DNA of 64,000 nt, taken from NCBI GenBank assembly GCA_011033025.1, contig WFMF01000042.1, positions 222,501 to 286,500 on the forward strand, read 5' to 3'. Below, piece after piece: positions 7,871 through 46,288 of the stretch; position 1 is the first letter of the stretch, and each line of letters opens with the position of its first letter. A model generated the notes under the pieces. That model was not told the DNA's origin and searched no databases. It saw only the letters and a list, made by a program, of their open reading frames with translations. The position numbers were made by a program, and so were the translations under genes. Source of the DNA: Beroe forskalii (taxonomy: Eukaryota; Ctenophora; Nuda; Beroida; Beroidae).

Positions 7871-8532
7871 GAGAACTTCCACGATCCCTCATTTACACGA
7901 TACAAATAATATGAAAAGATATATTATATTTATATCATACCAGTACCTTCGTATCAATTGTTTATTTTCGTTGTCAAGAGGCTATAATTGTAAATTTTCA
8001 TACCTAGACCCTTTTATTTGCTAGGGCACGGCTGCAGAAACAGATAATTTTGCAAATTTGAGGTATGCTAGGATATTTGCAGCTTCAAATGCCTCCTGTT
8101 AGACCATGTTGGTCTCAACTCTCAAAACTCCGCCCCAAGTATGCCTCATATATCTTATATTCCAATAGTCTAAATACCATGCTCAAACATCGAAAATGCC
8201 AATTTTTAAAGTGACTAATTTATGATCTATAGAAATTATCATCATATTTATATTCACGCTGAGGTGCTCAGCGTGACAGCAAATCATAATGAATTTTAGG
8301 AGGGACCAAAAATTTCGATTGTACCGAAAAAAAATCTCAAAATATGTTAAAATATCTGGTGCAAAGCTCGTTTGAAATAATTAATTTTTATTCATGACTG
8401 AAAATGGCAATTTTATGATCATTCAATTATTAATTTTTACTGCACACGAATTCAAATATATTTTCTAAGCCTAAATTATCATGAAACATTAAAAAATGAT
8501 CTAGGACCAACTAAAACTTACATGTCCCCCAT
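7871..8532. other. No recognisable feature
   Basis: AT-rich sequence shared with the right arm (about 39,380-40,045). It contains a short perfect inverted repeat, CGCTGAGGTGCTCAGCG, at about 8,257-8,273. No gene is seen. Confidence 0.4.
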
Positions 8533-11235
8533 GTTATATCGTCAAACATTTCTTAATCCAATAGATTTCAACTCTAAAATTGAGTTGGAATTGACAATCC
8601 GTTTCTATAATCTTATACATTATACATCAGTGACGTACATTACATATGGGCTAATAAATTAGGTACAAAACTAACGTAGGTAAATGAATGGTTGTTAAAT
8701 TCCCTGCAACTTATTAAAAATTCTTTCCACTTTTCTATTATGTACAATAATATATTTTTCAAGTACATACTCTTACCGGTTGAATTGTGAGGTATCTCAA
8801 CGCTTCTTGTCTTCTTTTCAGTTTCGGTGGAGCACCTTTCAGATTTTCATGCCATATTGAAGTATTGTTCTCTTCGTTGATTTATCATGTGCACTCATTC
8901 AAGTCCACATTGCAGATCCAAACTGCCATGATTCCTCCTCAAATTGTAGTTGGTAAAATTTTTAGTCTCAAAGAGTAAATTAAAGTATCATTAAGCATTC
9001 AAAATCAATCATATTTTCAAAAATTCTTAAGCGATCAGTGAATGGGATTCAATCAATCAAAAACAGTAATAGGATTCCCAGTAATGAGATTATAGAAACA
9101 ATTGCACAAAGCTGAGTGCAATAATTCAGTTCATAAAAAATAGGGCAGTCAACAATCTTATATATAATTTGGAGATGGCACGTGAATTTTGTCTGTTTGT
9201 GCGGGCGCACAGTTTAAATTTGAGCTTGCCAAGAAAATATCAAGGAAAACGAAGGCTGAACCGGGCTAAGTCGCGCCGTTGCTATGGAAACCAATTTTTG
9301 CACGTGCAGATTATGATCAGTTCTATGCAAGTGCTTTCTGATACGTTGTTGACTGCTGCATTGTAGCGTTTGAAAGAAAGGCCTATTTGCTGTTTTTCAT
9401 GTGAAATTCAAGATCTGAAGATAGAGAAAAGGTATGGGCTGGCATCGTGGAGGCTATTTCCGATAGCACCTCTTCACAAATCTGTGGCAGACATCGGTCG
9501 ATTTAAATCAATGCTGAGTTGATGGTAACGGAAAAACTCCAATTTAGAGCAATTTAAGATTGAACAAAATCAAAATCAAATTGAATCGAATTTGGGCATA
9601 GCACATTGTGATTTTGGAATACTGCTCTTGGCCTGAATCAACATTGCTTTGATTCAACGCTCACTATGAGTACGATACTCGGTTTTAATTTTCAGATTTA
9701 AATTGTCATACAAGAGCAAATAATAATGATCAAAACTTGCACGGTCCAGCATTACTAAAAGTTACCAACGAATAATGGTATTTCTGCTCCTTCATAAACT
9801 TTTTGAGAGCTTATTATTTGGTCCTGCGCGCATTCACTTCTGTTTAATGCTGTTTTATTTTTAATTTCGTTGCTCCGTAACTTTTGACTTGATTGGAGTT
9901 TTTTGATGCAGTAAAAAGTATTCAATAAATTGAATTGCAGCGAATCAAATTTGCGAACGAGGTGCTGCGTAGCAGCGCCGAGTGAGCTGTGTATTTGCAG
10001 GTCCAACGGGCCTGCTAGTTGAAATATAAATTGGAGAAACATTATATCCAATCAAGTAAATTATACTGAAAAAATGTGAAGTGTCACTGGCGTCAAAACG
10101 AAAATACAATATAGCAATATGAGTAATTTTTGTCGAAGGATATTTTATGGTCCTAAAACATAGACCTAGGGATTGTATAATTGTTATTTGTCACTCCTTT
10201 TAATGCCCGCAGGTGAACAGGATTAACCATCCAGTACTAGGTGCCATAATACAAGAGATTGACTTGCACCTTGTAGTCAAAGATCAAATGGTCGATATCA
10301 AAATCCCGTGCATATGGAATGTTAATACGAAGTTGGGACTGGTTTTGGCTACTTTGGACTATTTAGAAACTATTTAGACGTGGCGACAATTTTTATTTCA
10401 ATGTCGCTACCCATTTTGGGCCACGCCCATTTTGGCACTTCGCGCATGGCCCAAAATCGAAAAACTAGAATGAATCCCTATACAGTCCATGTGTTACATC
10501 GATTTTATGGTAAATCGACCTGAGAAACACGATGCAACCGACAATTTTCCTCTCGAAGCTCCTGTCAGAGATAAGGTGACCACACCCACTTTTGGCCTTG
10601 CGATGGCTGATTTTTGAGAAATATCACTTTTATGGAATAAGTATCATGTGATACATCAAACTTGTAGTTAATTGACCCGAGAAACACGATGCAACCAACT
10701 ATTTTCCTTTCCGAAGCTCCTGTCAGGAGATGAGGTGACCACACCCACTTTTTGGCCTTGCGCAAGGGCTGATTTTTGAGAAATATCACTTTTATGGAAT
10801 AAGTATCGTGTGATACATCAAACTTGTAGTAAATTGACCCGTGAAACACGATGCAACCCACTCTTTTGCTCTCCGAGGATCCTGTCAGGAGATAAGGTGA
10901 CCACGCCCACTTTTTGGCCTTGCGCGATGGCTGATTTTTGAGAAATATCACTTTTATGGAATAAGTATCATGTGATATATCAAACTTTTTTAGTAAATTG
11001 ACCTGAGAAACACGATGCAACCCACTATTTTGCTCTCCGAGGGTCCTGTCAGGAGATAAGGTGACCAAGCCCACTTTTGGCCTTGCGCGATGGCTGATTT
11101 TTGAGAAATATCACTTTTATGGAATAAGTATCATGTGATACATCAAACTTGTAGTAAATTGACCCGAGAAACACGATGCAACCCACTATTTTGCTCTCGA
11201 GGGTCCTGTCAGAGATAAGGTGACCACGCCCACTT
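8533..11235 (+). repeat. Direct duplication, copy A
   Basis: This block recurs in the same orientation starting at 11,291, a shift of 2,758 bp. The two copies differ mostly by one- or two-base deletions in homopolymers. It comprises shared arm sequence (8,533-10,273) followed by the first part of a fold-back element (10,274-11,235). It ends abruptly in the tandem units, and about 55 bp of unrelated AT-rich sequence (11,236-11,290) joins it to copy B. It could be a real duplication or an assembly seam inside the repetitive element. Confidence 0.85.
9152..10018. other. Segment present in the left arm, absent from the right arm
   Basis: The right arm joins the flanks directly near 38,697, while the left arm has about 867 extra bases here, and a second copy at about 11,907-12,748 in copy B. 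No inverted termini and no clear target duplication are visible, so a deletion in the right arm is as likely as an insertion. Short ORFs on both strands show no recognisable domain. Confidence 0.6.
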
Positions 11236-11236
11236 T
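10274..11236. mobile_element. Truncated fold-back element (left half only)
   Basis: It starts with TAGTCAAAGATCAAATGG preceded by TTG, exactly as the complete copy at 13,005. It continues through the unique head (to about 10,500) and roughly five 162-bp units carrying GAAACACGATGCAACC and CACTTTTATGGAATAAGTAT. It stops inside a unit. The 21-bp array and the entire right half are missing. The long minus-strand ORFs here come from the 162-bp (54-codon) period. Confidence 0.8.
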
Positions 11237-11290
11237 TACTCATAATCTCAAAAAACCCAAATTATCATAAAATTAAAATCAGCCTTTGAT

Positions 11291-13004
11291 GTTATATCGT
11301 CAAACATTTCTTAATCCAATAGATTTCAACTCTAAAATTGAGTTGGAATTGACAATCCGTTTCTATAATCTTATACATTATACATCAGTGACGTACATTA
11401 CATATGGGCTAATAAATTAGGTACAAAACTAACGTAGGTAAATGAATGGTTGTTAAATTCCTGCAACTTATTAAAAAATTCTTTCCACTTTTCTATTATG
11501 TACAATAATATATTTTTCAAGTACATACTCTTACCGGTTGAATTGTGAGGTATCTCAACGCTTCTTGTCTTCTTTTCAGTTTCGGTGGAGCACTTTTCAG
11601 ATTTTCATGCCATATTGAAGTATTGTTCTCTGTTGATTTATCATGTGCATCATTCAAGTCCACATTGCAGATCCAAACTGCCATGATTCCTGTTCACATT
11701 GTAGTTGGTAAAATTTTAGTCTCAAAGAGTAAATTAAAGTATCATTAAGCATTCAAAATCAATCATATTTTCAAAAATTCTTAAGCGATCAGTGAATGGA
11801 TTCAATCAATCAAAAACAGTAATAGGATTTCAGTAATGAGATTATAGAAACAATTGCACAAAGCTGAGTGCAATAATTCAGTTCATAAAAATAGGGCAGT
11901 CAACAATCTTATATATAATTTGAGATGGCACGTGAATTTTGTCTGTTTGTGCGGCACAGTTTAAATTTGAGCTTGCCAAGAAAATATCAAGGAAAACGAA
12001 GCTGAACCGGGCTAAGTCGCGCCGTTGCTATGGAAACCAATTTTTTGCACGCAGATTATGATCAGTTCTATGCAAGTGCTTTCTGATACGTTGTTGACTG
12101 CTGCATTGTAGCGTTTGAAAGAAAGGCCTATTTGCTGTTTTTCATGTGAAATTCAAGATCTGAAGATAGAGAAAAGGTATGGGCTGGCATCGTGGAGGCT
12201 ATTTCCGATAGCACCTCTTCACAAATCTGTGGCAGACATCGGTCGATTTAAATCAATGCTGAGTTGATGGTAACGGAAAACTCCAATTTAGAGCAATTTA
12301 AGATTGAACAAAATCAAAATCAAATTGAATCGAATTTGGGCATAGCACATTGTGATTTTGAATACTGCTCTTGGCCTGAATCAACATTGCTTTGATTCAA
12401 CGCTCACTATGAGTACGATACTCGGTTTTAATTTTCAGATTTAAATTGTCATACAAGAGCAAATAATAATGATCAAAACTTGCACGGTCCAGCATTACTA
12501 AAAGTTACCAACGAATAATGGTATTTCTGCTCCTTCATAAACTTTTTGAGAGCTTATTATTTGGTCCTGCGCGCATTCACTTCTGTTTAATGCTGTTTTA
12601 TTTTTAATTTTGCTGCTCCGTAACTTTGACTTGATTGGAGTTTTTGATGCAGTAAAAGTATTCAATAAATTGAATTGCAGCGAATCAAATTTGTGAACGA
12701 GGTGCCAGCAGCAGCGCCGAGTGAGTTGTGTATTTGCAGGTCCAACTAGTTGAAATATAAATTGGAGAAACATTATATCCAATCAAGTAAATTATACTGA
12801 AAAATGTGAAGTGTCACTGGCGTCAAAACGAAAATACAATATAGCAATATGAGTAATTTTTGTCGAAGGATATTTTATGGTCCTAAAACATAGACCTAGG
12901 GATTGTATAATTGTTATTTGTCACTCCTTTTAATGCCCGCAGGTGAACAGGATTAACCATCCAGTACTAGGTGCCATAATACAAGAGGATTGACTTGCAC
13001 CTTG
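11291..13004 (+). repeat. Direct duplication, copy B (flanking part)
   Basis: This repeats 8,533-10,273 in direct orientation, with many single-base losses (for example shortened A, G and T runs). The duplication continues into the fold-back element that begins at 13,005, which is complete in this copy. Short ORFs mirror those of copy A and are not convincing genes. Confidence 0.85.
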
Positions 13005-13239
13005 TAGTCAAAGATCAAATGGTCGATATCAAAATCCCCGCATATGGAATGTTAATACGAAGTTGGGACTGGTTTTGGCTACTTTGGACTATTTAGAAAC
13101 TATTTAGACGTGGCGACAATTTTTATTTCAATGTCGCCACCCATTTTGGGCCACGCCCATTTTTGGCACTTTGCGCATGGCCCAAAAATCGAAAAAACTA
13201 GAATGAATCCCTATACAGTCCATGTGTTACATCGATTTT

Positions 13240-14090
13240 ATGGTAAATCGACCCGAGAAACACGATGCAACCGACAATTTTCCTCTCCGAAGCTCCTGTC
13301 AGGAGATAAGGTGACCACACCCACTTTTTGGCCTTGCGCGATGGCTGATTTTTGAGAAATATCACTTTTATGGAATAAGTATCATGTGATACATCAAACT
13401 TGTAGTTAATTGACCCGAGAAACACGATGCAACCAACTATTTTCCTTTCCGAAGCTCCTGTCAGGAGATGAGGTGACCACACCCACTTTTTGGCCTTGCG
13501 CAAGGGCTGATTTTTGAGAAATATCACTTTTATGGAATAAGTATCGTGTGATACATCAAACTTGTAGTAAATTGACCCGTGAAACACGATGCAACCCACT
13601 CTTTTGCTCTCCGAGGATCCTGTCAGAGATAAGGTGACCACGCCCACTTTTTTGGCCTTGCGCGATGGCTGATTTTTGAGAAATATCACTTTTTATGGAA
13701 TAAGTATCATGTGATATATCAAACTTTTAGTAAATTGACCCGAGAAACACGATGCAACCCACTATTTTGCTCTCCGAGGGTCCTGTCAGGAGATAAGGTG
13801 ACCAAGCCCACTTTTTGGCCTTGCGCGATGGCTGATTTTTGAGAAATATCACTTTTATGGAATAAGTATCATGTGATACATCAAACTTGTAGTAAATTGA
13901 CCCGAGAAACACGATGCAACCCACTATTTTGCTCTCCGAGGGTCCTGTCAGGAGATAAGGTGACCACGCCCACTTTTTGGCCTTGTGCGATGACTGATTT
14001 TTGAGAAATATCACTTTTATGGAATAAGTATCATGTGATACATCAAACTTGTAGTTATTTGCCCCCGAGCAGACACAATGCAACTATTTT
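13240..14090. repeat. 162-bp tandem units, left arm of fold-back copy 1
   Basis: Five units are spaced 162-163 bp apart (for example the CTTGTAG block at 13,399, 13,561, 13,724, 13,886 and 14,048). Because 162 is 54 codons, one minus-strand frame stays open and gives a 54-residue repeat containing KFDVSHDTYSIKVIFLKNQP. I regard that as a by-product. Confidence 0.9.
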
Positions 14091-14139
14091 CCTCTACAAG
14101 GCTCCAGTCAGCAGATGTGATGACCCCACATTTCTGCAC

Positions 14140-15565
14140 CTGAACGATCTTTTCACACTCCTGCACGACCCTCTCACAGTCCTGAACGACCCTCTCACAG
14201 TCCTGAACAACCCTCTCACAGTACTGAACGACCCTCTCACAGTCCTGAACAACCCTTTCATAGTCCTAAAGAACCCTCTCACAGTCCTGAACGAACCTCT
14301 CAAATTCCTGAACAACCCTTTCATAATTCTGAATAACCCTCTCACATTCCTGCACCTGAATGATCTTTTCACTTTCCTGCACGACCCTCTCACAGTCCTG
14401 AACGACCCTCTCACAGTCCTGATCAACCCTTTCATAGTCCTGAACAACCCTCTCACAGTCCTGAACGTCCCTCTTACAGTCCTAAATAACCCTCTCAAAG
14501 AACTGAACGACCCTAGCATAGTCCTGAAAAACCCTTTCATAGTCCGAAAAATCCTCTCACAGTCCTGAACGAACCTTTCATAGTCCTAAACAACCCTCTC
14601 ACAGTCCTGAACGGCCCTCTCAGAGTCCTGAACAACCCTTTCATAGTCCTGAATAACCCTCTCACAGTCTCACACTCCTGAACGACCCTCTCACTCTCCT
14701 AAACGACCCTTTCACAGTCCTGAACGATCTTCTCACACCTCGCACGAAACTCGCACAGTCCTGAACGACCCTCTCACAGTCCTGAACAACCCTTTCATGG
14801 TCTTGAACGACCGTCGACCCTCTCACACTCCTGAACGACCCTTTCACACTCCTGAACGATTGTCTCACACTCCTGCACGACCCTCTCACTGTACTGAACG
14901 ACCCTCTCACAGTACTGAACGACCCTCTCACAGTCCTGAACGGCCCTCTCAAATTTTCTGAACGACACTCTAAAACTCCTGACCGTCTCTCTCACAGTTA
15001 AGTCTCGAACGATCATCGACGCTCTCGCACTCCTGAGCGGCTTTCTTACAGTCCTGAACGAACCTCTCACTCTCCTGAACGGGCCTCTCACAGTCCTGAA
15101 CAGGGCTTACTCTGAACGACCCTCTCCTGAACGACCCTATCACACTCCTGTACGACCATCTCACAGTCCCGAACGACTGTGAGAGGATCGTTCAGGACAG
15201 TGAGAGATCGTTCAGGACTTGAGAGGTCGTTCAGACTGTGAGAGGGTTGTTCAGGAGTGTGAGGCCGGTCAGGAGTGTTAGAGGGTTTCTCAGGAGTAAT
15301 AGAGGTTTAATGAGGGCAAGATGGTTGCAAATGCATGTTTTATATAAGGGCGGAGTGTATGAAGGTTGCTCGGAGGTGTGTAATTGGAATCAGGAGTGTA
15401 AGGGAGTCGTTTAGGAGCGTTAGAGGGTCGTTCAGGAGAGTGCAAGGGTCGTTCGAGAGTGTGAAAAGGTCGTTGAGGACTTCAGAGCGTCGTTCAGGAC
15501 TGTGAAAGGGTCGTTCAGGATCGTCAGAGGGTCGTTCAGGACTGTGAGAGGGTCGTTCAGGACTG
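14140..15565. repeat. 21-bp tandem arrays in inverted orientation, palindrome centre of copy 1
   Basis: About fifty degenerate copies of a 21-bp unit (core CTCACAGTCCTGAACGACC) run to about 15,175. The reverse-complement unit (core GGTCGTTCAGGACTGTGAG) follows to about 15,565, with a short non-repetitive gap near 15,300-15,400. The turn-over lies at about 15,177. The 7-codon period keeps frames open on both strands. Confidence 0.9.
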
Positions 15566-16425
15566 AAAAAAGGTTGGTTTCTTGTTTCTTATAAGTTTCA
15601 TTGAAAAATTACACACGCCCGAAATGAGGGTGTGGTCATCTTATGTCCTGAAAGGAGCCTCGGGGAGTAAAAAATCGTTGGTTGCATCGTGTTTCTTAGG
15701 TCGATTCACCAAAGTTTGATGTATCACATACCACTCATGCCATAAAATTAAAAGTGATATTACTCAAAAATCAGCCATCGTGCAAGGCCAAAAAGTGGGC
15801 GTGGTCAACATATCTCCTGACAGGAGCCTCGGAGGGCAAAATAGTGGGTTGCATCGTGTTTCACGGGTCAATTTACTACAAGTTTGATGTATCACACGAT
15901 ACTTATTCCATAAAAGTGATATTTCTCAAAAAATCAGCCCCTTGCGCAAGGCCAAAAGTAGGTGTGGTCACCTCATCTCCTGACAGGAGCTGGAAAGGAA
16001 AATAGTTGGTTGCATCGTGTTTCGGGTCAATTAACTACAATTTTGATGTATCACATGATACTTATTCCATAAAAGTGATATTTCTCAAAAATCAGCCATC
16101 GCGCAAGGCCAAAAAGTGGGTGTGGTCACCTTATCTCCTGATAGGAGTCCCGGAGAGGAAAATAATTGGTTGCATCGTGTTTCTCGGGTCGATTTGCCAT
16201 GAAATCGATGTAACACATGGACTATATAGAGATTCATTCTAGTTTTCAGATTTTTGGGCCATGCGCAAAGTGCCAAAAATGGGCGTGGCCCAAAATGGGT
16301 GGCGACATTGAAAAAAAAATTGTCGCCACGTCTAAATAGTTTCTAAATAGTCCAAAGTAGCCAAAACCAGTCCCAACTTCGTATTAACATTCCATATGCA
16401 CGGGATTCCATTTGATCTTTAACTA

Positions 16426-17876
16426 TTGTGTGATAATGAAACTGGAAGGTGTAATGTGTTAAGTGTTACCTAAGCAAAAGGTGCAAGAGCTTGTCTGATA
16501 AATTCAATTCAATTAAATTCAATTATAATTTTTTACAGCACAAAACTTGACTGGGTTATAATGAAGAATCTTGGAGGCACCTAGTCAAATTTAAAATCTG
16601 TTTATAGGGCCTCCCATCAAGGACTATAAGTATAAGGATAAATAATCATATAAATGCAAAGACGGTGGCATAGTTACCAAACTATAATCATAGTTGAAAA
16701 AACCATCGCTGGGCATTCAGTGAATCAAGAAATCAGGGAAATCAAGAAAATAGTAAGTTTCATTTCATTTATATCGAACATCTTGATCAATTCTGGTCTT
16801 CCGAATGCTGACCCAAAATTTAAAAAAAAATGAATGATGAATTCAAATGCGATTAATGCTACACCACCACAAATTTTTAGCCAATGAAAAATTTATTCTT
16901 GAGCCATAGTTCCCAGAAATGCAAACTTTTTGCGACACTAATGTACAGCAACATATGCGAATTATACTTTCTTGGAACTACAGTTCAAAAATACTTTTAT
17001 CGATATGTGATTTAAATTTCAAATAACTAAAATGAGCATATCATTGCTAAATGTTGCCCATTTGAGACAAATGTCACCATTTTGACATAATGATCATACA
17101 CAACCCACAGTGGCCATCGATTCTTGAAATTCAAAATGGACAATTCCAGCTTTATGCAACAAAAAACAGCATTTTGTGGTTTCAATGGGAGAAAACGATT
17201 TCAAATCAATGAAATTATGCATTTTATTGCGAAACTACCTATGACTGAAGACCCAAGAGATCGGCGACCTTAGAAATTAGCCAAATGCCACTGTATCAGC
17301 TGTTTCAAGTTATTTCGACAATTGGTAAATGGGCTCAAATCATAAAGGAAACTTGATGAAATTAAACTTGATGAGTTATTCTGGATGTGAATGCAAATGG
17401 TAGGTCAAAACGGGTCGAAATCTTATTTTTGTGCAACAAAATGAGTTTTTCCCAAAATGAGTTTTTCCCAAACATCAAGATTGGACTGATTTTGATCACC
17501 AGCCTGATCTAACATGCTTTATGAATATTTGATAGTATAATAGTAACGTTTTGAGAAATAATTAGAACCTATATGGATTGCTCAAGAGTGAATAAGTACC
17601 AACCTATAAAACTATAAAAATCCAAAATGACATCAGCAAATCGCTTGATAAAACGGTAGGTAGGTACAAATCCTAACAACTTTTGTCATGTATGATGTAG
17701 GTACCTAGGTAATCTTTTTGCTCTAATCTGCTAATCTGACAAATAAATCTGTTGACTACAACACTAGGGTGAATCATAAGGAATTAGATCCATAATGGAT
17801 AAGGGGAATTATCTTCAGGGGGAATGTAGGTACCAGGAAACGCAGCAGTCTGTATGGTAATCAAAGCATCGAAGTA
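16426..17876. other. Unique DNA between two fold-back elements
   Basis: It aligns with the right arm at about 36,970-38,443 in inverse orientation. No ORF with recognisable similarity was seen. Confidence 0.5.
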
Positions 17877-20800
17877 TAGTCAAAGATCAAATGGTCGATA
17901 TCAAAATCCCGTGCATATGGAATGTTAATACGAAGTTGGGACTGGTTTTGGCTACTTTGGACTATTTAGAAACTATTTAGACGTGGCGACAATTTTATTT
18001 CAATGTCGCCACCCATTTTGGGCCACGCCCATTTTTGGCACTTTAAGCATGGCCCAAAAAATCGAAAAACTAGAATGAATCCCTATACAGTCCATGTGTT
18101 ACATCGATTTTATGGTAAATCGACCCGAGAAACACGATGCAACCGACAATTTTCCTCTCCGAAGCTCCTGTCAGGAGATAAGGTGACCACACCCACTTTT
18201 TGGCCTTGCTGATGGCTGATTTTTTGAGAAATATCACTTTTATGGAATAAGTATCATGATATCAAACTTGTAGTTAGTTAATTGACCTGAGAAACACGAT
18301 GCAACCAACTATTTTCCTTTCCGAAGCTCCTGTCAGGAGATGAGGTGACCACACCCACTTTTGGCCTTGCGCAAGGGCTGATTTTTGAGAAATATCACTT
18401 TATGGAATAAGTATCGTGTGATACATCAAACTTGTAGTAAATTGACCCGTGAAACACGATGCAACCCACTCTTGGTTTCCGAGGATCCTGTCAGGAGATA
18501 AGGTGACCACGCCCACTTTTTGGCCTTGGCGCGATGGCTGATTTTTTGAGAAATATCACTTTTATGGAATAAGTATCATGTGATATATCAAACTTTTAGT
18601 AAATTGACCCAAGAAACACGATGCAACCCACTATTTTAACCTCCGAGGGTCCTGTCAGGAGATAAGGTGACCAAGCCCACTTTTTGGCCCTTTGCTGATG
18701 GCTGATTTTTTGAAATATCACTTTTATGGAATAAGTATCATGTGATACATCAAACTTGTAGTAAATTGACCCGAGAAACACGATGCAACCCACTATTTTG
18801 CTCTCCGAGGGTCCTGTCAGGAGATAAGGTGACCACGCCCACTTTTTGGCCTGTGCGATGACTGATTTTTTGAGAAATATCACTTTTATGGAATAAGTAT
18901 CATGTGATACATCAAACTTGTAGTTATTTGCCCCCGAGCAGACACAATGCAACTATTTTCCTCCTACAAGGCTCCAGTCAGCAGATGTGATGACCCCACA
19001 TTTCTGCACCTGAACGATCTTTTTCACACCCTGCACGACCCTCTCACAGTCCTGAACGACCCTCCTCACAGTCCTGAACAACCTCTCACAGTACTGAACG
19101 ACCCTCTCACAGTCCTGAACAACCCTTTCATAGTCCTAAAGAACCCTCTCACAGTCCTGAACGAACCTCTCAAATTCCTGAACAACCCTTTCATAATTCT
19201 GAATAACCTCTCACATTCCCTGCACCTGAATGATCTTTTCACTTTCCTGCACGACCCTCTCACAGTCCTGAACGACCTCTCACAGTCCTGATCAACCCTT
19301 TCATAGTCCTGAACAACCCTCTCACAGTCCTGAACGTCCTCTTACAGTCCTAAATAACCCTCTCAAAGAACTGAACGACCCTAGCATAGTCCTGAAAACC
19401 CTTTCATAGTCCGAAAATCCTCCTCACAGTCCTGAACGAACCTTTCATAGTCCTAAACAACCCCTCACAGTCCTGAACGGCCCTCTCAGAGTCCTGAAAC
19501 AACCCTTTCATAGTCCTGAATAACCTCACAGTCTCACACTCCTGAACGACCCTCTCACTCTCCTAAACGACCCTTTCACAGTCCTGAACGATCTTCTCAC
19601 ACCTCGCACGAAACTCGCACAGTCCCGAACGACCCCTCTCACAGTCCTGAACAACCCTTTCATGGTCTTGAACGACCGTCGACCCTCTCACACTCCTGAA
19701 CGACCCTTTCACACTCCTGAACGATTGTCTCACACTCCTGCACGACCTCTCACTGTACTGAACGACCTCTCACAGTACTGAACGACCTCTCACAGTCCTG
19801 AACGGCCCTCTCAATTTTCTGAACGACACTTAAAACTCCTGACCGTCTCTCTCACAGTTAAGTCTCGAACGATCATCGACGCTCTCGCACTCCTGAGCGG
19901 CTTTTTACAGTCCCCGAACGAACCCTCACTCTCCTGAACGGGCTCTTCACAGTCCTGAACAGGGTTTACTTCCTTGACCTTTTCACATCCTGAACGACCC
20001 TATCACACTTGGGCGACCATATCTCACAGTCCCGAACGACCGGGGAGAGGATCGTTCAGGACAGTGAGAGGGATCGTTCAGGACTTGAGAGGGCCGTTCA
20101 GGACTGTGAGAGGGTTGTTCAGGAGTGTGAGTGGGCCGGTCAGAGTGTTAGAGGGTTTCTCAGGAGTAATAGAGGTTAATGAGTGCAACATGGTTGCAAA
20201 TGCATGTCATAAGGGCGAGAGTGTATGAAGGTTCGTAGGTGTGTAATTGGAATCAGGAGTGTAAGGGAGTCGTTTAGGGAGCGTTAGAGGGTCGTTCAGG
20301 AGTGCAAGGGTCGTTCGAGAGTGTGAAAAGGTCGTTGAGGACTTCAGAGCGTCGTTCAGACTGTGAAAGGGTCGTTCAGGATCGTCAGAGGGTCGTTCAG
20401 ACTGTGAGAGGGTCGTTCAGGACTGAAAAAAGGTTGGTTTCTTGTTTTATAAGTTTCATTGAAAAATTACACACGCCCGAAATGAGGGTGTGGTCATCTT
20501 ATGTCCTGAAAGGAGCCTGGGAGTAAAAAATCGTTGGTTGCATCGTGTTTTTAGGTCGATTCACCAAAGTTTGATGTATCACATACCACTCATGCCATAA
20601 AATTAAAAGTGATATTACTCTCAAAAATCAGCCATCGTGCAAGGCCAAAAAGTGGGCGTGGTCAAATATATCTCCTGACAGGAGCCTCGAGGCAAAATAG
20701 TGGGTTGCATCGTGTTTCACGGGTCAATTTACTACAAGTTTGATGTATCACACGATTATTCCATAAAAGTGATATTTTCAAAATCAAGCCCTTGCGCAAG

Positions 20801-21265
20801 GCCAAAAAGTGGTGTGGTCACCACTTCCCTGACAGGAGCTTCTGGAAAGGAAAATAGTTGGTTGTATCGTGTTTTCGGGTCAATTAACTACAAGTTTGAT
20901 ATCACATGATACTTATTCCATAAAAGATATTTCTCAAAATCAGCCATCACAAGGCCAAAAGTGGGTGTGGTCACCTTATCTCCTGATAGAGTCCTGAGAG
21001 GAAAATAATTGGTTGCATCAGTGGCTTTTCGGGTCGATTTTATGAAATCGATGTAACATATGGACTATATAGAGATTCATTCTAGTTTTCAGATTTTTGG
21101 GCCATGAAAGTGTCAAAAATGGGCGTGGCCCAAAAATGGGTGGCGACATTGAAAAAAAATTGTCGCCACGTCCAAATAGTTTCTAAATAGTCCAAAGTAG
21201 CCAAAACCAGTCCCAACTTCGTATTAACATTCCATATGCACGGGATTCCATTTGATCTTTAACTA
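17877..21265. mobile_element. Complete fold-back element, copy 2
   Basis: It has the same termini and internal order as copy 1, flanked by GTA at 17,874-17,876 and 21,266-21,268. The right arm shows the empty site with one GTA near 36,975. The 162-bp units span about 18,110-18,950, the 21-bp units about 19,010-20,040, the inverted 21-bp units about 20,045-20,430 and the inverted 162-bp units about 20,480-21,060. It differs from copy 1 by many small deletions, so the two insertions are recent, or sequence error is high, or both. Confidence 0.85.
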
Positions 21266-22500
21266 GTATGAGTAACAATTAATTGAATTGATGGTGAAAT
21301 CCAATGTCTTATCTATAGAGGTGTATGGGTATACTACAAACATAACAAATTACTGTACATCGATTTTCTTAATTCAAGGATTGACACATAAGAAGAGGCG
21401 GAAGAGACTAAACTGCGAATCATCATGGTTACCCCACAGTTGTAAAGTCTCCTGATGCCATCTGCAATGTAGGTGTCCCATCAGCAGGTGACAAAAGGGA
21501 AACGGAGGGGTTTCGGGTTAGAATACTCGGACCTTATTAAGTGATGATATCATGCATTCCATTACCCCAATTCTTATAAAATCTACAATGCATTAGAATT
21601 TCAAATTGGTTACGTAATCTTGATCGATCATCAGTCGAAAGCACCTGGCAAATGTGCAATAAAAATGTATAAAGGTGAAATCGACAAATGAATAGGTACA
21701 AAGTTTTCTACGCCTATTCAACAGCTTTAAAAGCAAAAGGTTAAAACTTGCTTTAGTCAAAAATCTCATATATCGATACTTGAAAAAAATGGCAAATAAC
21801 TAATGGCATGCCGTTCATGTTAATACCTTTCAATTTAGACATACTCGCGCGCTCAATTACAACTGTAAAGTCTGAAAACTAGCAATAGATGGAAGACCCT
21901 TTTCAATACAGCCGCGCAATTGACGTATGACAGACTACTGAATTACGGTTATGACTTATTTACATATGTACTAACTTACTTCAACTACCTTATCTACTAA
22001 CTGACTAACTAAATTGCAGATTAAACTACTAGACTACCTACTTTATCCCTACTGACTGACTATCTGACTGACTGTATTACTGATTGACTCATTAACTTAC
22101 TGAAACTTCAAACTTAGTGACCTAACCTCATCACTAATACAACTATTTATTTACTTAGTTAACATAATGAGTAACTCATTACCCAAGTAATTACTAACAG
22201 ACTCTAACTAATCATTTAAGCTAGAACTTTATTACTTGGATATCTAAACTCTACTTAATTGGTTACATGATTGTTTACATAAATGGTGACCGACTTAAAC
22301 TGACTCAAGTAGTGACTTAATGAATTAATGAATTAATTACATCACTGGTAATTTAAGTAATACCTACTTACTCATACTCATTACTCTCATTATAATTCTA
22401 ATAATAAGATAAATGCTGACACTTGATAAAGCAGAATTACGGTAACCGGTGCGATACCCAGACTTGTTTAACAGGATTTTGGGGCGGATTTTCAATTCTC
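21266..22500. other. End of left arm and low-complexity spacer start
   Basis: Left-arm homology continues to about 21,838. From about 21,950 to 22,390 the sequence is a degenerate run of ACTTACTAACTGACTA-like words, probably an eroded simple repeat. No gene is seen. Confidence 0.5.
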
Positions 22501-24930: not shown

Positions 24931-26190
24931 GACTTAAATTGAGTTAAATTGAGTTAAGTTAAGTTAAGTTGAGTAAGTTGAGTTAAGTTGAGTTAAGTTG
25001 AGTTAAGTTGAGTTAAGTTGAGTTAAGTTGATTTAGGCTGAGTTAAGTTGTGTTAAGTTGAGCTAAGTTGAGTTAAGTTGAGTTATGTTGAGTTAGAGTG
25101 AGTTATGTTAAGTTGAGTTAAATTGAGTTAAGTTAAGTTAAGTTGAGTAAGTTGAGTTAAGTTGAGTTAAGTTGAGTTAAGATGAGTTAAGTTGAGTTAT
25201 TTTGAGTTAAGTTAAGTTAAGTTGAGTTAAGTTGAGTTAAGTTGAGTTAGTTGATTTCTAGGCTGAGTTAAGTTGTGTTAAGTTGAGCAAAGTTGAGTTA
25301 AGTTGAGTTAAGTTGAGTTAGGTTGAGTTATGTTAAGTTTCGAGTTAAGTTGAGTTAAGTTAAGTTAAGTTAAGTTAAGTTAAGTTAAGTTAAGTTAAGT
25401 TGAGTTAAGTTGAGTTAAGTTGAGTTAAGTTGAGTTAAGTTGAGTTAGTTGAGTTAAGTTGAGTTAAGAGTTAAGTTAAGAGTTAAGTTAAGAGTTAAGT
25501 TAAGAGTTAAGTTAAGAGTTAAGTTAAGAGTTAAGTTAAGTTAAGTTAAGAGTTAAGTTAAGAGTTAAGTTAAGAGTTAAGTTAAGAGTTGTTAAGAGTT
25601 AAGTTAAGAGTTAAGTTAAGAGTTAAGTTAAGAGTTAAGTTAAGAGTTAAGTTAAGAGTTAAGTTAAGAGTTAAGTTAAGAGTTAAGTTAAGAGTTAAGT
25701 TAAGAGTTAAGTTAAGAGTTAAGTTAAGAGTTAAGTTAAGAGTTAAGTAAGAGTTAAGTTAAGAGTTAAGTTAAGAGTTAAGTTAAGAGTTAAGTTAAGA
25801 GTTAAGTAAGAGTTAAGTTAAGAGTTAAGTTAAGAGTTAAGTTAAGAGTTAAGTTAAGAGTTAAGTAAGTTAAGTTAAGTTAAGTTAAGTTAAGTTAAGT
25901 TAAGTTAAGTTAAGTTAAGTTAAGTTAAGTTAAGTTAAGTTAAGTTAAGTTAAGTTAAGTTAAGTTAAGTTAGGTTAGGTTAAGTTAGGTTAAGTTGAGT
26001 TAGGGGGTAGGGGGAGTTAAGTTAGGTTAAGTTGAGTTAGGGTGAGTTAAGTTAAGTTAAGTTAAGTTAAGTTAAGTTAAGTTAAGTTAAGTTAAGTTAA
26101 GTTAAGTTAAGTTAAGTTAAGTTAAGTTAAGTTAAGTTAAGTTAAGTTAAGTTAAGTTGAGTTAAGTTAAATTGAGTAAAGTTGAGTCGA
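24930..26190. repeat. TTAAG-type satellite (5-, 10- and 12-bp periods)
   Basis: The array starts as GAGTTAAGTT decamers (about 24,935-25,460), becomes a 12-bp GAGTTAAGTTAA array (about 25,465-25,865) and then pure TTAAG pentamers (about 25,866-25,970 and 26,047-26,158). Near 25,970-26,040 it contains TTAGG-like variants and a GGGGGTAGGGGGAG interruption. TTAGG is the common arthropod telomere repeat, but here TTAAG dominates. Confidence 0.95.
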
Positions 26191-28078: not shown

Positions 28079-28318
28079 CAAACAGGAAATACAGGAGTGA
28101 AGAAGAGGGATTTCTTTTGAAGTTTTATGATAAATAGGACGAGCAGAGTTGTCACAAACATCGTTTATTGTAGCAATAAAACTATGTTGTAGTAGTACGG
28201 AAATTTTCAAATGTTCTATCAACATTCATTTTCAACCATATTCTGAAGATTATAAGTTGATTAGCATAACAGATAATAAAATTATTCAATCAACATGAGT
28301 CAGTACTGACAGTATTGA

Positions 28319-28987
28319 CTACACTATCATACTCAATGGACCCAAGAATCGTACGGTATCAGCTTCACTCAAATATCAACGGTACTAATAGAACGGAATG
28401 GCAACTGTTCTAAGTGGGACTTATTCCATTTAGAATTAGAAAAGATAGTTAACATGCTACGTAACAATGGTTATAACAAGAATTTTATTTATAGTATTAT
28501 CAATAAGGAAGTAACTAAACGAATGGATGCCGACGAAAAGCTAATTTTCGAAGGCCCAGAGAAGTTTAAAGTTTATCTTAAATTACCATACTTAGGTGAA
28601 ATATCTAATAAAGTCAGACATTGTATCAGAAAGAAATTGCCTGGTAAACTAGAATTAATCTATACGAGTAGTTACTTAAAGTTAAGTCAAGTATTTAAGT
28701 TTAAAGATGTACAACCTAAGCACCTCAAACATGATGTGATATACAGGATCATATGCAGTTGTGGCCGACGCTATATCGGTGAAACTTGCCGTGCTCTGCA
28801 AACTCGGTTCGAAGAGCACACCAAAACAAGTGGATCAGGTATGACGGAGGTCGGGAAGCACCTTGTTGCTGAACCTGGCTGTCATATCACATTTGAGGAC
28901 TGCGAGATTTTAACGTATGAAAGTAAAATGTACAAACGGAAACTGAAAGAGAGCTTATTTATTCAACAATACGACGATGGTAACTAG
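28319..28987 (+). CDS. Penelope-like element C-terminal fragment with GIY-YIG endonuclease
   Basis: The frame is open from 28,319, with an internal ATG at 28,454 that gives 177 residues. Counting from that ATG, residues 1-90 resemble the end of the Penelope reverse transcriptase/linker (NNGYN..., then LPYLGEISNKVRHCIRKKLP). Residues 94-170 are a GIY-YIG domain: VIYRIICSCG, RYIGETCRALQTRFEEH with the conserved Arg118, and a KES motif whose Glu166 fits the catalytic glutamate. The full reverse transcriptase is missing (family ORFs run to about 800 residues), so this is a 5'-truncated copy. The part upstream of about 28,408 belongs to the inverted flank, so translation from there would be a fusion. 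In the family this nuclease nicks target DNA for retrotransposition; this copy could not act alone. Confidence 0.85.
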   Translation, partial: LHYHTQWTQESYGISFTQISTVLIERNGNCSKWDLFHLELEKIVNMLRNNGYNKNFIYSIINKEVTKRMDADEKLIFEGPEKFKVYLKLPYLGEISNKVRHCIRKKLPGKLELIYTSSYLKLSQVFKFKDVQPKHLKHDVIYRIICSCGRRYIGETCRALQTRFEEHTKTSGSGMTEVGKHLVAEPGCHITFEDCEILTYESKMYKRKLKESLFIQQYDDGN

Positions 28988-31062
28988 GCTGTAACATATT
29001 TTGGACTTTTTCCCAAAATGATTAACTTGGGGTCCTAAGTTTGTTAAGAAGGTTTGTTTTGAACCATGAAACAAGAATTTTTGGAAAAAATCATTTTTTA
29101 GACCCTGCTGTCCCCCAAAGAAGAGCGCGCGTAAGTGAAAATTCCTGACAAGGTCATAACTTTTTCATTTTTTGAGATACAAAAACGATAGAGTACTCAA
29201 AATGCGCAGAATCATCACATTTCCCACCCTAGAAATCATCAAAGAGTGCATCAGAGGCTCTTTTTTGAAGATATGGAGCATATTTTGATTTGTGCTTCAC
29301 TCGCGATGACTTTGGTGATTTTTGATAATTTCATCCAATCATATTGTTTTTTGAAGATGAATTCAACTGTTCTAACACGATTGAAGCACAATCCAGAAGG
29401 GTATTGAATGTTAAAAAGCTTTAAAAGCATGTAAAATGGTAGATTGAGTGAACCAGAGGCCGTATTGTCAGCATATTTCTGTGTTGGGCGGGGCGCATAT
29501 TGTGCGCTCTGCATTGACTTTGATGCCCTGCTGTTTTTGGGTCATATGTCACTCACTGAAGTACTGAGGATTGTTGCTCAGTACATCAGGCGGCCTCATA
29601 AAGCCATTGAAATGTTTCTGCACATGGCTAGTGGCTACTCTGAAAAAGTCTGGGGAGGGCATTGTATTTTGTCAGTAGCAAGGCCAGATGAGAATGAAAA
29701 TCTATATAACAAAGTTTTCAGAGCTGGATCAATGTGAACTTCGACACTAATAAAATCGGAGATTAGTTATGTCTTTATTGTGTCCGCCCTTGGCAATATT
29801 TTTACCATTATCCATTTAAAGCTTCATTGGATAGCTAGTTACCGAGGACGTTTGGGACCCGAATTATAAATGCATCAAATCCTTGAGAGCTTTCAATGTA
29901 CTTACACCATTTTCCAGTCTCCACTTACTAATTTAGACCAGGGGGCTGGGAAAGGTGATTTGAGTATAATCTATGGCACCTTGATTGGCATGAATAACAA
30001 TTATTGACATCCTAATTGTTCATGCATGTGTTCAAACTGCCTGCCGAATGACAAAATGGCTGTCACTTTATTTCTAAAGGTACTTTATTGAATACTCATC
30101 CTCTGTTACTGCTTCACTTGGTAAGACATCAATGTGATCCAGCTAAAAGAAGGGAGACTTGTTAAACTGCTATGATTCTATACAATCTAGGTTTTGATCT
30201 GGGTTCTGATTGAGGCTATTGCAGGTTGCTGTTCCTGTGTGGTCCAGAGCTGGCTGTTGGGTCTCAGCAATGTATTTAATCGATAGTGGATTATGAAAGG
30301 AAATATTGTCATGTGGATAATGATAAAGACATAATTAGTCTCCGATTTTCTCAGTATCCTAGAATTGAAGAACACATTGACCCAGCTCTTGATCCAGGAA
30401 CTATGACTTCCCAGAGGTCATAACATCAGCAGAAATAGTTCTATGGGCTGATGAGGCAGCCTGACATACTAATCAAAAATAGTACAGTTTCAGTATATGA
30501 CCCAAAAACAGTAGGGCATCAAAGTTAATGCAAAGCATAAACACTAACATAGAAACATGCTGACAATACGGCCTCTAGTTGACTCAATCTACCATTTTAC
30601 ATGCTTGTCAAAGCTTTTTAACATTCAATACCCTTCTGGATTGTGTTTTAATCGTGTTAGAACAGTTGACTTCATCTTCAAAAACAATATGATTAGATGA
30701 AATTATCAAAAATCACTAAAGTCATTGCGAGTGAAGCACAAATCAAAATATGCTCCATATCTTCAAAAAAGAGCTTCTGATGCACTTTTTGATGATTTCT
30801 AGGGTGGGAAATGTGATGATTCTGCGCATTTTGAGTACTCTATCGTTTTTGTATCTCAAAAAATGAAAAAGTTATGACCTTGCCAGGAATTTTCACTTAC
30901 GCGCGCTCCTCTTTGGGGGACAGCAGGGTCTAAAAAATGATTTTTTCCAAAAATTCTTGTTTCATGGTTCAAAACAAACCTTCTTAACAAACTTAGGACC
31001 CCAAGTTAATCATTTTGGGAAAAAGTCCAAAATAGGTTACAGCCTAATGGTAACTTGTTGAA
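28986..31062. repeat. Inner inverted repeat of the Penelope composite
   Basis: Arms 28,986-29,785 and 30,322-31,062 pair with substitutions and indels; they include a CTGCTGTCCCCCAAAG-type block and an AAAATCGGAGA block at the inner edge. A 97-codon ORF (29,444-29,737) lies in the left arm and is followed by AATAAAA, but the right arm breaks the frame, so I do not call a gene there. Confidence 0.8.
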
Positions 31063-31646
31063 TGATAAGCTCAAATCTGTTCCGTTATTTCTATTCAACT
31101 TACCCACCTATCAGGATCAGATTAAAGGCCGTATCTTCCCCAAGTTTTAGTAACCAGGACAGTGTAATAGTGTAATAGTGTAATTTGTATATTGTATAAT
31201 TAGGGTAGGTGTAAGAGGTACTCCGTAGTATAACGGTAATTGGATTATGAACTGGGTAATTGCGTCGGTGTGTGAACCTCATGATACGCACTCTCTATCA
31301 CGATGTTCACATGCAACAGTAAATGTGAAAATCAAGTTCCTAGTACAGTTGCCATTCCGTTCTATTAGTACCGTTGATATTTGAGTGAAGCTGATACCGT
31401 ACGATTCTTGGGTCCATTGAGTATGATAGTGTAGTCAATACTGTCAGTACTGACTCATGTTGATTGAATAATTTTATTATCTGTTATGCTAATCAACTTA
31501 TAATCTTCAGAATATGGTTGAAAATGAATGTTGATAGAACATTTGAAAATTCCCGTACTACTACAACATAGTTTTATTGCTACAATAAACGATGTTTGTG
31601 ACAACTCTGCTCGTCCTATTTATCATAAAACTTCAAACAGGAAATA

Positions 31647-33699: not shown

Positions 33700-34560
33700 G
33701 TTAAAAGGCTCAATGTAAATTGTGCACCGTTCATACCAGTCTTAGTGAAGCTTTTACGCCCAGTAAATTGGTATTTTAATTTAATTGCAAGGCTCAATGT
33801 AAATTGTGCACCGTTCATACCAGTCTTAGTGAAGCTTTTACGCTCAGTAAATTGGTATTTTAATTTAATTGCAAGGCTCAATGTAAATTGTGCACCATTC
33901 ATACCAGTCTTAGTGAAGCTTTTACGCTCAGTAAATGTATTTTAATTTAATTGCAAGGCTCAATGTAAATTGTGCACCGTTCATACCAGTCTTAGTGAAG
34001 CTTTTACGCCCAGTAAATTAGTATTTTAATTTAATTGCAAGGCTCAATGTAAATTGTGCACCGTTCATACCAGTCTTAGTGAAGCTTTTACGCCCAGTAA
34101 ATTGGTATTTTAATTTAATTGCAAGGCTCAATGTAAATTGTGCACCGTTCATACCAGTCTTAGTGAAGCTTTTACGCCCAGTAAATTGGTATTTTAATTT
34201 AATTGCAAGGCTCAATGTAAATTGTGCACCGTTCATACTAGTCTAAGCGAACTAGCTTTTAAACTAAATAAATTGTCATTTCATTAAGTTGAAAGGCTCA
34301 ATGTAAATTGTGCACAGTAATTTAGCAGTGATACTTTAGGATGTACTCGATAGGGTTTCATTTCCGTTAAGTGAAAGGCTCAATGTAAATTGTGCACCGT
34401 TCATACTAGATAAGGAAGCTTTGATACTCAGTTAGGTGGCATTTAGTTAAGGTTGCAAGGCTCGATGTAAATTGTGCACCGTCTACATTGGGAAAAGTGA
34501 CTTCTTAGTGAAAATAAGACGCATAATGTCATTGTAAATTGCACAAGGTCTATACTTTAT
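33700..34560. repeat. 84-bp satellite
   Basis: Units begin with GGCTCAATGTAAATTGTGCA at about 33,708, 33,791, 33,874, 33,957, 34,041, 34,125 and 34,209, nearly identical at 83-84 bp. Progressively diverged units follow at 34,295, 34,377 and 34,459, and a remnant near 34,525. Because 84 bp is 28 codons, repetitive ORFs appear on both strands (for example MNGAQFTLSLAIKLKYQF on minus). The gradient from homogeneous to diverged is typical of array-edge decay. Confidence 0.95.
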
Positions 34561-36619: not shown

Positions 36620-39600
36620 CTAAATTGAAAGGTATTGCATGAACGGCATGTGCCCATTAGGGTCACATTTTTTCAAGTAAGGAGCATATGCGATATTTCA
36701 GACTCATAAAGCAAGTTTTAACCTTTTAAGGCTTTAAGGTTAAGTTGAATAGGCGTAGAAACTTGTACCTATTCAGCTATTCGATTTCACCCTTATGCTA
36801 CCTTTTTTATTGCACATTTGCCAAGGTGCTTTCGACTGATGAGCACACATACGTGTAAACCAATTCTAATGCATTGTAGATTTTATAAAAGAATTGGGGT
36901 AATGGAATGATGATATCATCACTTAATAAGGTCCGGGAGTATTCTAACTTTCACCATCAATTCAATTAATTGATACTCATACTTCGATGCTTTGATTACC
37001 ATACAGACTGCTGCGTTTCCTGGTATACCCATACATTTCACCCCCTGAAGATAATTCCTTATCCATATGGATCTAATTCCTTATGATTCACCCTAGTGTT
37101 ATGGTCAACTTAGATTTAGTGTTTGGTCAACAGATTTATTTGTCAGATTAGAGCATAAAAGCATAAAGATTACCTAGTACCTACATCATACATGACAAAA
37201 GTTGTTAGGATTTGTACCTACGTCTACAAGTGATTTGCTGATGTCATTTTTGGATTTTTATAGTTTTATAGGTTGGTACTTATTCACTCTTGAGCAAGCT
37301 GTAGGTTCTAATTATTTCTCAAAAAGTTAATATTACTATCAAATATTCATAAAGCATGTTAGATCAGGCTGGTGATCAAAATCAGTCCAATGAATGAAAA
37401 ACTCGTTTTGTTGCACAAAAATAAGATTTCGACCCGTTTTGACCTACCATTTGCATTCACATCCGGAATAACTCCATTAATTTCATCAAGTTTCCTTTAT
37501 GATTTGAGCCCATTTACCAATTGTCGAAATAACTTGAAACAGCTGATATAGTGGCATTTGGCTAATTTATTCTAAGGTCGCCTATCTCTTGGGTCTTCAG
37601 TCATAGGTAGTTTCGCAATAACAAGCATAATTTCATTGATTTGAAATCGTTTTCTCCCATTGAAACCACAAAATGCTGTTTTTTGTTGCATAAAGCTGGA
37701 ATTGTCCATTTTGAATTTCAAGAATCGATGTCCATTGTGGGTTGTGTATGATCATTATGTCAAAATGGTGACATTTGTTTCAAATGGCCAATGGGCAACA
37801 TTTAGCAATGATATGCTCATTTTAGTTATTTGAAATTTAAATCACATATCGATAACAGCATTTTTGAACTGTAGTTCCAAGAAAGTATAATTCGCATTAT
37901 ATGTTGCTGTACATTAGTGTCGCAAAAAGTTTGCATTTCTGGGAGCTATGGCTCAAGAATAAATTTTTCATTGGCTAAAAATTTGTGGTTGTGCAGCATT
38001 TATCGAATTTGAATTCATCATTCATTTTTAAAAAATTTTGGGTCAGCATTCGGAAGACCAGAATTGATCAAGATGTTCGATATAAATGAAATGAAACTTA
38101 CTATTTTCTTGATTTCCCTGATTTCTTGATTCACTGAATGCCCAGCGATGATTTTTTCAACTATTATTATAGTTTGGTAACTATGCCACCGTCTTTGCAT
38201 ATATATGATTATTTATCCTTATACTTATAGTCCTTGATGGGAGGCCCTATTAACAGATTTTAAATTTGACTAGGTGCCTCCCAGATTCTTCATTTTAACC
38301 CAGAGAAAAATATATGTCAAGTTTTGTGCTGTAAAAAATTATAATTGAATTTAATTGAATTGAATTTATCAGACAAGCTCTTGCACCTTTTGCTTAGGTA
38401 ACACTTAACACATTACACCTTCCAGTTTCATTATCACACAAGGTGCAAGTTAATCTCTTGTATTATGGCACCTAGTACTGGATGGTTAATCCTGTTCACC
38501 TGCGGGCATTAAAAGGAGTGACAAATAACAATTATACAATCCCTAGGTCTATGTTATAGGACCATAAAATATCCTTCGACAAAAATTACTCATATTGCTA
38601 TATTGTATTTTCGTTTTGACGCCAGTGACACTTCACATTTTTTCAGTATAATTTACTTGATTGGATATAATGTTTCTCCAATTTATATTTCAATTGTTGA
38701 CTGCCCTATTTTTAGTGCTGAAGAGATTTTATACTTTTATTTATTATGAACTGAATTATTGCACTCAGCTTTGTGCAATTGTTTCTATAATCTCATTTCA
38801 AGGAATCTTATTACTGTTTTTGATTGATTGAATCCCATTCACTGATCGCTTAAGAATTTTTGAAAATATGATTGATTTTGATACTTTAATTTTGATACTT
38901 TAATTTACTCTTTGAGACTAAAAATTTTACCAACTACAATGTGAAGAGGAATCATGGCAGTTTGGATCTGCAATGTGGACTTGAATGAGTGCACATGATA
39001 AATCAACAAAGAGAACAATACTTCAATATGGCATGAAAATCTGAAAGGTGCTCCACCGAAACTGAAAAGAAGACAAGAAGCGTTGAGATACCTCACAATT
39101 CAACCGGTAAGAGTATGTACTTGAAAAATATATTATTGTACATAAATAGAAAAGTGGAAAGAATTTTTAATAAGTTGCAGGGAATTTAACAACCATTCAT
39201 TTACCTACGTTAGTTTTGTACCTAATTTATTAGCCCATATGTAATGTAAGTCACTGATTAGGAGTGAGTGAATAGGTACTCACTACCTGTATGTATAAGA
39301 TTATAGAAACGGATTGTCAATTCCAACTCAATTTTAGAGTTGAAATCTATTGGATTAAGAAATGTTTGACGATATAACATGGGGGACATGTAAGTTTTAG
39401 TTGGTCCTAGATCATTTTTTAATGTTTCATGATAATTTAGGCTTAGAAAATATATTTGAATTCGTGTGCTGTAAAAATTAATAATTGAATGATCATAAAA
39501 TTGCCATTTTCAGTCATGAATAAAAATTAATTATTTCAAACGAGCTTTGCACCAGATATTTTAAAATATTTTGAGTTTTTTTTTCGGTACAATCGAAATT

Positions 39601-42680: not shown

Positions 42681-42749
42681 AAATCGGTAAGTAGCATGGC
42701 AAAACAGGGGTTTGAGAAAAATTTCTCATGATGTTATTATGAATGCAGA

Positions 42750-43735: not shown

Positions 43736-43967
43736 GGTCAGTGAGATAAATTCGGCTGAACTAAAGGTCTGAAGATCAATAAGGTTAATATGTCAACTCA
43801 TATCCAAGGGGAGTGCCAAAATTTTATTTATCGAACGCCTGATGAAGCTTTTCAACTGCGCCTTACAACGCGTAGTAATTTATTTCTACTTCAATATAGA
43901 TGCGGCTGTTGAACTGCACGATTGTGTTTAATCTCAATTTACTGGTGAGAATCTCTTGTGCAAAGAT

Positions 43968-46216: not shown

Positions 46217-46288
46217 TAATAGGTCAAAAAATTTTGTATGAAATGCAGGTTTTTTAAAACTTCTATGTACAAAAAAGTTTTTAAAATA

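Follow-up and report, generated by a model that had tools for sequence, protein, structure and literature searches.

A fold-back transposon family of the ctenophore Beroe forskalii with unequal ends, 3-bp target duplications and a probable AcademX connection

Transposons of fold-back form are known to go with enzymes of the P type (Galileo) and of the Mutator type (Tm1, FARE) (PMC3169594). In Galileo, the sites bound by the transposase lie near the end of the element and again in its tandem repeats (PMC3688188). Among Academ transposons, target duplications are 3 or 4 bp long in AcademX and 9 or 10 bp long in AcademH, a difference ascribed to a nuclease versus a helicase (PMC10045372). Here we report on a fold-back family of Beroe forskalii, two complete members of which, elements 1 and 2, lie in a window of 64,000 nucleotides, the whole stretch of DNA that was analysed (GenBank assembly GCA_011033025.1, contig WFMF01000042.1, positions 222,501 to 286,500). 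The elements of the window are probably non-autonomous members of this family, mobilised in trans by an AcademX-type transposase.

Elements, target duplications and repeats of the family

Both elements share the same order of parts: a head of about 216 bp, a tandem array of a unit of about 162 bp, arrays of a 21-bp unit that reverse their orientation in mid-element, and then the mirror image. Self-BLAST and TRF reproduced the coordinates of the exact ends (TAGTCAAAG...CTTTAACTA in element 1), the order of the tiers and the mirror arrangement that had been proposed in an earlier reading of the letters alone (hereafter the sequence-only reading). The two elements are 94.8% identical in an end-to-end alignment, and their arms match each other over approximately 825 bp at 90.5% in element 1 and 85.7% in element 2. 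Between the elements there are 57 mismatches against 124 gap positions, which resembles long-read error; because the copies differ by small gaps more than by substitutions, dating by divergence was abandoned. The open reading frames of at least 150 amino acids (aa) inside the window elements, which were not compared with protein families, were all repeat-encoded.

The window itself is a large inverted duplication (palindrome, 58-22000 against 36600-49012), in which identity between corresponding pieces of the arms is mostly 90-99%, in some near 80%, and insertions are present in one arm only. The TTG and GTA duplications that the sequence-only reading had assigned to elements 1 and 2 were borne out: on the reverse strand of the opposite palindrome arm both sites are empty, with a single copy of the triplet. 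A truncated copy, which had been listed as a third copy, turned out to lie within a 2.7-kb tandem direct duplication (8531-11237 against 11289-13977, 97.5%) that breaks inside the 162-bp array. Since the truncated copy has the same flanking sequence as element 1, it does not represent an insertion of its own and cannot be counted towards the target duplications. The copies of the tandem duplication differ by 17 mismatches and 50 gap positions, that is, mostly by gaps; the duplication (8531-13977) may be real or an assembly error, the assembly being gap-rich.

To collect further members, the genome assembly (216 Mb, 1134 contigs) was searched with an inner-head pattern of 30 bases, allowing up to 3 mismatches. 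There were 98 matches, compared with none for the reversed pattern. The 9-bp tip alone was uninformative as a search pattern (681+720 matches against 1804+1871 for the reversed control). Joined head to head over at most 15 kb, the matches formed 37 pairs, with 24 ends remaining single; with C267 (L053), the left head of which had been missed by the pattern, 38 elements were read at both ends. For 13 of these the reading covered the whole element, and for 25 the ends alone. Seven of 20 loci (L042-L046, L054, L057) were left out for want of two intact ends, and L060-L062 did not enter the analysis. Similarity among copies stops at TAGT...ACTA and the flanks differ from copy to copy. The 38 elements support what the sequence-only reading had supposed from the window, namely a transposon family of fold-back form with tandem-repeat arms and 3-bp duplications.

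All 13 fully read elements have target duplications of 3 bp, with none longer when checked up to 15 bp. Among the 25 pairs read by their ends, 19 are intact-ended, and the duplication is 3 bp in 18 of these and 4 bp in one (C248), which brings the count to 31 of 32 intact-ended elements with 3 bp and one with 4 bp. Six elements with damaged or variant ends (C625, C555, C567, C522, C1102 and C187) were not counted, although an ATA duplication was seen by eye in C555. When flanks were swapped between elements as a control, matches occurred in 20 of 342 cases. The duplicated triplets, among them TTG, CCG, CTC, TTT, CAA and GCA, have no obvious common sequence. The two checks by which the sequence-only reading was open to refutation, on the duplications of other copies and on the limits of shared sequence, left it standing.

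Long TIRs (terminal inverted repeats) with internal tandem repeats, as expected of fold-back elements, are present in 13/13 fully read elements; on both sides these carry arrays of units of about 135-163 bp, or of doubles of such units, the right array of C756 lying far inside its 304-bp matching arm. By the inner box of the head, the 38 elements fall into about four subfamilies: CATATGGAA (n=14, window included), CATATGGAG (n=6, including the element C392 described below), CTTTTGG (n=13) and CATAAA (n=5). With a strict 8-letter inner-box label, four of the 38 have unlike labels at their own ends, by a letter or a shift. The tip found in the window (TAGTCAAAG/TAGTTAAAG) occurs in five elements of the CATATGGAA subfamily.

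Both tiers of the arms described in the sequence-only reading were confirmed; the 21-bp tier also occurs outside the family. Two blocks, one GAGAAACACGATGCAA-like and the other GTGACCACRCCCACTTTT, are kept in eight units of four elements (two units each from window element 1, C392, C756 and C802). In all fully read elements but C344 (12 of 13), GTGACCACRCCCACTTTT stands in both heads, about 138 bp from the tip of the short end and 148 bp from that of the long end (see below), and it repeats inward at steps of about 162 bp, though missing from some units. Across the window, CCACRCCCAYTTTT is present 20 times, always within the two copies and the truncated one, against an expected 0.00 (100 shuffles). 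By analogy with Galileo, GTGACCACRCCCACTTTT is a candidate for a repeated transposase-binding site. The 21-bp tier is present in the five fully read elements with the window's tip and absent from the other eight. A 26-mer of it (up to 2 mismatches) gave 129+235 genome matches (control 0+0), and four other loci, of 2.1-3.3 kb each, carry this tier without similarity to the heads or the 162-bp units of the family. This tier is most readily understood as a minisatellite that other sequences also carry. At L119 (C44) and L120 (C25), the minisatellite has the same tandem unit of 93-94 bp nearby, which suggests a different composite element carrying the same minisatellite.

A coding member and the candidate transposase

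One member, an 8378-bp element at C392:591050-599427 (L059 151-8528), has ends of this type, is flanked by a TAA duplication and possesses arms that match over 684 bp at 94.7% and contain 162-bp units. It holds an open frame of 1453 residues (L059 3341-7699, + strand), the stop of which lies about 155 bp before the right array; a frame upstream on the same strand (L059 2638-2943) may be a first exon. Inverted repeats longer than 20 bp were looked for in the interior and none was found, and hence there is no sign of the gene having arrived on a nested element. The C-terminus of the frame has a Tesmin/TSO1 CXC domain (TCR/CXC PF03638, E 9.5e-7, 29.5 bits against a cut-off of 23.5). In the region before this domain, we take the order of motifs, ending in GCDQIGTFNGVTKKR, to be that of XPG/FEN1 nucleases; the nuclease of AcademX is of the XPG type, and a CXC domain together with an XPG/FEN1-like pattern is what such a transposon would be expected to encode. 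The motif pattern aligns with a relative in C441, found by tblastn with the C392 frame (E 5.8e-12 and 4.6e-7). This relative supplies the statistical support: for its nuclease region, the top five PDB hits are all human Exonuclease 1, with collinearity over 197 residues and weak E values of 0.022 to 0.3. The C441 relative also matches DUF6589 at 28.1 bits, just above the cut-off of 27; no support for a connection between DUF6589 and Academ was found in the literature searched. In total, tblastn with the C392 frame gave 28 genome matches, the query itself counted, and distant relatives are present. The two upstream frames of C392 had no match in Pfam, and an NCBIfam scan of two proteins gave none.

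The C441 locus (C441:39000-48600; L067/L064/L068) contains a DUF6589/XPG-like gene, with a 1137-aa frame in the piece fetched, as well as 22-bp tandem repeats at its left and an internal inverted repeat of 344 bp (93%). A large element of the family, C669 (L047/L048, 9.7 kb), contains in its middle long arrays of 41-bp and 20-bp units, which differ from the 21-bp tier of elements 1 and 2; its listed frames, for which no family scan was made, are short or repetitive, and tblastn with the C392 frame placed no match there.

Given the AcademX-like protein in a member with ends of this type, the family looks like a member of a known superfamily, AcademX being compared here by description. The sequence-only reading had called the family new-looking and unrecognised; it can be placed through this coding member. 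Duplications of 3 bp, rarely 4 bp, agree with those of AcademX, and the putative link between the enzyme and the window elements is based on the ends and arrays of about 162 bp that these share with C392. Several observations weigh against this assignment. A single coding copy was detected (40 of 41 candidates were scored by tblastn), and the head of C392 is approximately 81% identical to that of the window; for these two reasons, cross-mobilisation is something that we infer. A five-sequence profile (A1) had no match in the PDB at E<=5, a Pfam search of the C392 frame at E<=1 brought up no XPG model, and the sole PDB hit of this frame was the CXC protein lin-54 (E 0.052). Furthermore, the C441 gene lies between different ends (GGTCATA...TATGACC) with an apparent 8-bp duplication, ACTCCATA, so that either the duplication length is non-uniform among these relatives or the C441 locus is nested.

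Another transposase that makes 3-bp duplications (e.g. Zator, Harbinger or CACTA) might instead move the family, the AcademX-like frame of C392 being a captured or nested passenger. CACTA-type elements make 3-bp duplications; those of PIF/Harbinger are of the TWA type, a pattern that the duplications here do not follow. Superfamilies with 3-bp duplications exist, such as Zator (PMC10045372) and PIF/Harbinger; in addition, the frame was detected in one of 38 elements, and an unrelated transposase could sit elsewhere in the family, of which 25 members were read at their ends. We nevertheless regard a passenger as unlikely: duplications of 3-4 bp fit AcademX, no nested inverted repeat longer than 20 bp was found around the frame, and its stop is close to the right array. 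A Galileo/P-type or Drosophila Foldback element is a far poorer candidate and very improbable. The general look is alike, with long TIRs containing tandem repeats, the Galileo TIRs hold repeated transposase sites (PMC3688188), and P elements have unequal spacers at their two ends (PMC7776569). However, duplications of 3 bp in 31/32 elements contrast with 7 bp in Galileo (PMC3573991), a difference for which the sequence-only reading had rightly set Galileo apart, and likewise with 8 bp in P (PMC7776569), and a Pfam scan of the C392 frames (E<=1) brought up neither a THAP nor a P-transposase family. Finally, a palindromic satellite or an assembly artefact with no transposon at all could be imagined, since the window lies within a palindrome, many small gaps separate the copies and one 'copy' stems from tandem duplication. 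Against this, the ends are exact, and duplications as well as empty sites recur at loci that are unrelated and spread over many contigs, which leaves this explanation with almost no probability. Mobilisation in trans by an AcademX-type transposase is the explanation that we consider likely.

One long end and one short end

The distance from the TAG tip to the inner box CCCGTGC is about 31 bp at one end of an element (long-lead) and 21 bp at the other (short-lead), and what lengthens the former is an extra block (TCAATATATA-like; in the window, TCGATATCAA) inserted after the tip of 18 bp and before the inner box. One long-lead and one short-lead end were found in 38/38 elements, exactly 10 bp apart in 36, 9 bp in C802 and 11 bp in C359; the spacing in C233 is 21/31. 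A difference of about 10 bp corresponds to about one turn of the DNA helix, as in antibody-gene recombination. The block is readable in all six elements with damaged or variant tips, and C392 has its long end on the 5' side of the gene.

Over the inner head (58 bp), mean identity is 97.6% between an element's own ends, 93.0% between elements with the same label and 85.5% between labels; the own partner is the best or joint best match for 47 of 76 ends and not for the other 29. Both ends carry the same 7-letter tip type in 28 of 38 elements. Ten have unlike tips: seven differ by one letter (C233 was read by eye), one end is damaged in C567 and in C522, and C416 has mixed types. Sequence on either side of the block thus tends to change in step at both ends, while the block stays put. 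Such a pattern is what selection for unlike ends would produce, although common descent alone could also account for it, and the 38 elements are not independent observations.

We give an even chance to a one-helical-turn rule, by which the AcademX fold-back transposase would synapse only a 31-bp long-lead end with a 21-bp short-lead end. Such a rule would be a counterpart of the RAG 12/23 rule that evolved independently, kept by selection against homogenisation of the arms, with phased binding sites every 162 bp or so extending the synapse. The asymmetry may instead be inherited baggage without function, otherwise compatible with AcademX-type mobilisation: a single asymmetric ancestor may have given rise to all copies, and a heterology near the tip may bring gene conversion to a halt. 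This is a tentative possibility that we do not favour, because the tip type and the inner box, which flank the block, are mostly alike within an element and differ between subfamilies, and the block has neither spread nor vanished in 38 elements.

With an AcademX-type transposase obeying the one-turn rule, the following mechanism may be proposed: the enzyme would bind the tip, the inner box and, in the manner of Galileo, repeated sites in the units of about 162 bp, pair one long with one short end, cut the element out and insert it with a stagger of 3 bp (rarely 4 bp). The XPG-like domain would trim flaps or cut a strand, and the 21-bp tier would be passive minisatellite filler in the middle of window-type elements. 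A safeguard of this kind might be of use in that like ends, within or between long arms, could be mispaired. If true, the natural end pairs of about four subfamilies could serve to ask whether unequal end spacing safeguards fold-back elements.

Features of the window and comparison with described systems

Table 1. Positions of the elements, their parts and the empty target sites in the window.
Feature	Position	Strand	Basis or remark
Truncated copy, left 964 bp of an element, within the tandem direct duplication	10274..11237	+	97.5% over 2723 columns, flank included
Element 1, complete fold-back element, 3421 bp	13005..16425	+	self-BLAST, TRF, flank comparison; without transposase frame
Left target duplication TTG, element 1	13002..13004	.	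flank comparison and empty site
Right target duplication TTG, element 1	16426..16428	.	flank comparison and empty site
10-bp block TCGATATCAA, confined to the long-lead end of element 1 (between 18-bp tip and inner box)	13023..13032	+	head alignment
Left tandem array of about 162 bp, element 1, 5.5 units; CCACRCCCACTTTT and GAGAAACACGATGCAA-type block in most	13221..14116	+	TRF
21-bp tandem array (CCTGAACGACCCTCTCACAGT), left orientation, element 1	14139..15177	+	TRF; also elsewhere in the genome
21-bp arrays, mirror orientation, interrupted, element 1	15175..15565	-	TRF
Right tandem array of about 160 bp, element 1, 3.5 units, mirrors the left	15628..16195	-	TRF, inverted repeats
Right head of element 1, short-lead type, without the 10-bp block	16196..16425	-	head alignment
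Element 2, complete fold-back element, 3389 bp, architecture as element 1	17877..21265	+	TRF, inverted repeats, self-BLAST
Left target duplication GTA, element 2	17874..17876	.	flank comparison and empty site
Right target duplication GTA, element 2	21266..21268	.	flank comparison and empty site
10-bp block, long-lead end of element 2	17895..17904	+	head alignment
Left array of about 162 bp, element 2	18093..18986	+	TRF
21-bp arrays, element 2, forward to about 20041, then mirror	19030..20425	.	TRF
Right array of about 157 bp, element 2	20604..21019	-	TRF
Empty TTG target site of element 1, opposite palindrome arm	38439..38441	-	reads ...CACCTTG|TGTGATAATG...
Empty GTA target site of element 2, opposite palindrome arm	36980..36982	-	reads ...GAAGTA|TGAGTA...

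Elsewhere in the window, TRF found a 1.25-kb array of the 5-bp unit TTAAG (24934-26187, about 238 copies, 75% match), about 7 copies of an 84-bp unit (33705-34482) and 2.5 copies of a 313-bp unit (43966-44773). A smaller palindrome (28116-31637, arms 99% and 91% alike) includes a frame of 222 aa (28319-28987) without a Pfam match at 0.01, the end of which we take to be a GIY-YIG-type motif. Two further frames, of 290 aa (52051-52923) and 298 aa (58249-59145), also had no Pfam match at 0.01 and are presumably retroelement pieces.

The family resembles AcademX in its duplications of 3 (rarely 4) bp and in the putative nuclease-like domain of the coding member (PMC10045372), and differs from it in its fold-back form, its arm arrays of about 162 bp and its pairing of a long with a short end. 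In the best-ranked titles and beginnings of abstracts of the Academ literature, no Academ fold-back family or end rule was found; Repbase and Kojima 2020 were outside this survey, and priority is not established. Like Galileo, a fold-back member of the P superfamily, the elements have long TIRs with tandem repeats, but Galileo, compared by description, has 7-bp duplications (PMC3573991) and a P-type transposase. With Tm1, a Mutator/Foldback element of root-knot nematodes, the family shares fold-back TIRs and a single transposase-coding copy among many, whereas Tm1 has a MULE/Phantom-type transposase and mostly 9-bp duplications (PMC3169594). Should the AcademX assignment be true, the fold-back form would be tied to a third transposase lineage. 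As regards the ends, boxes at unequal distances are also known from P (9/21 bp) and RAG (12/23) (PMC7776569), and ProtoRAG has a 27/31 spacing and prefers unlike ends (PMC8289069). A function of the asymmetry in the family described here is putative, and these systems employ other transposases and make target duplications that are 8 bp (P) and 5 bp (ProtoRAG) long.

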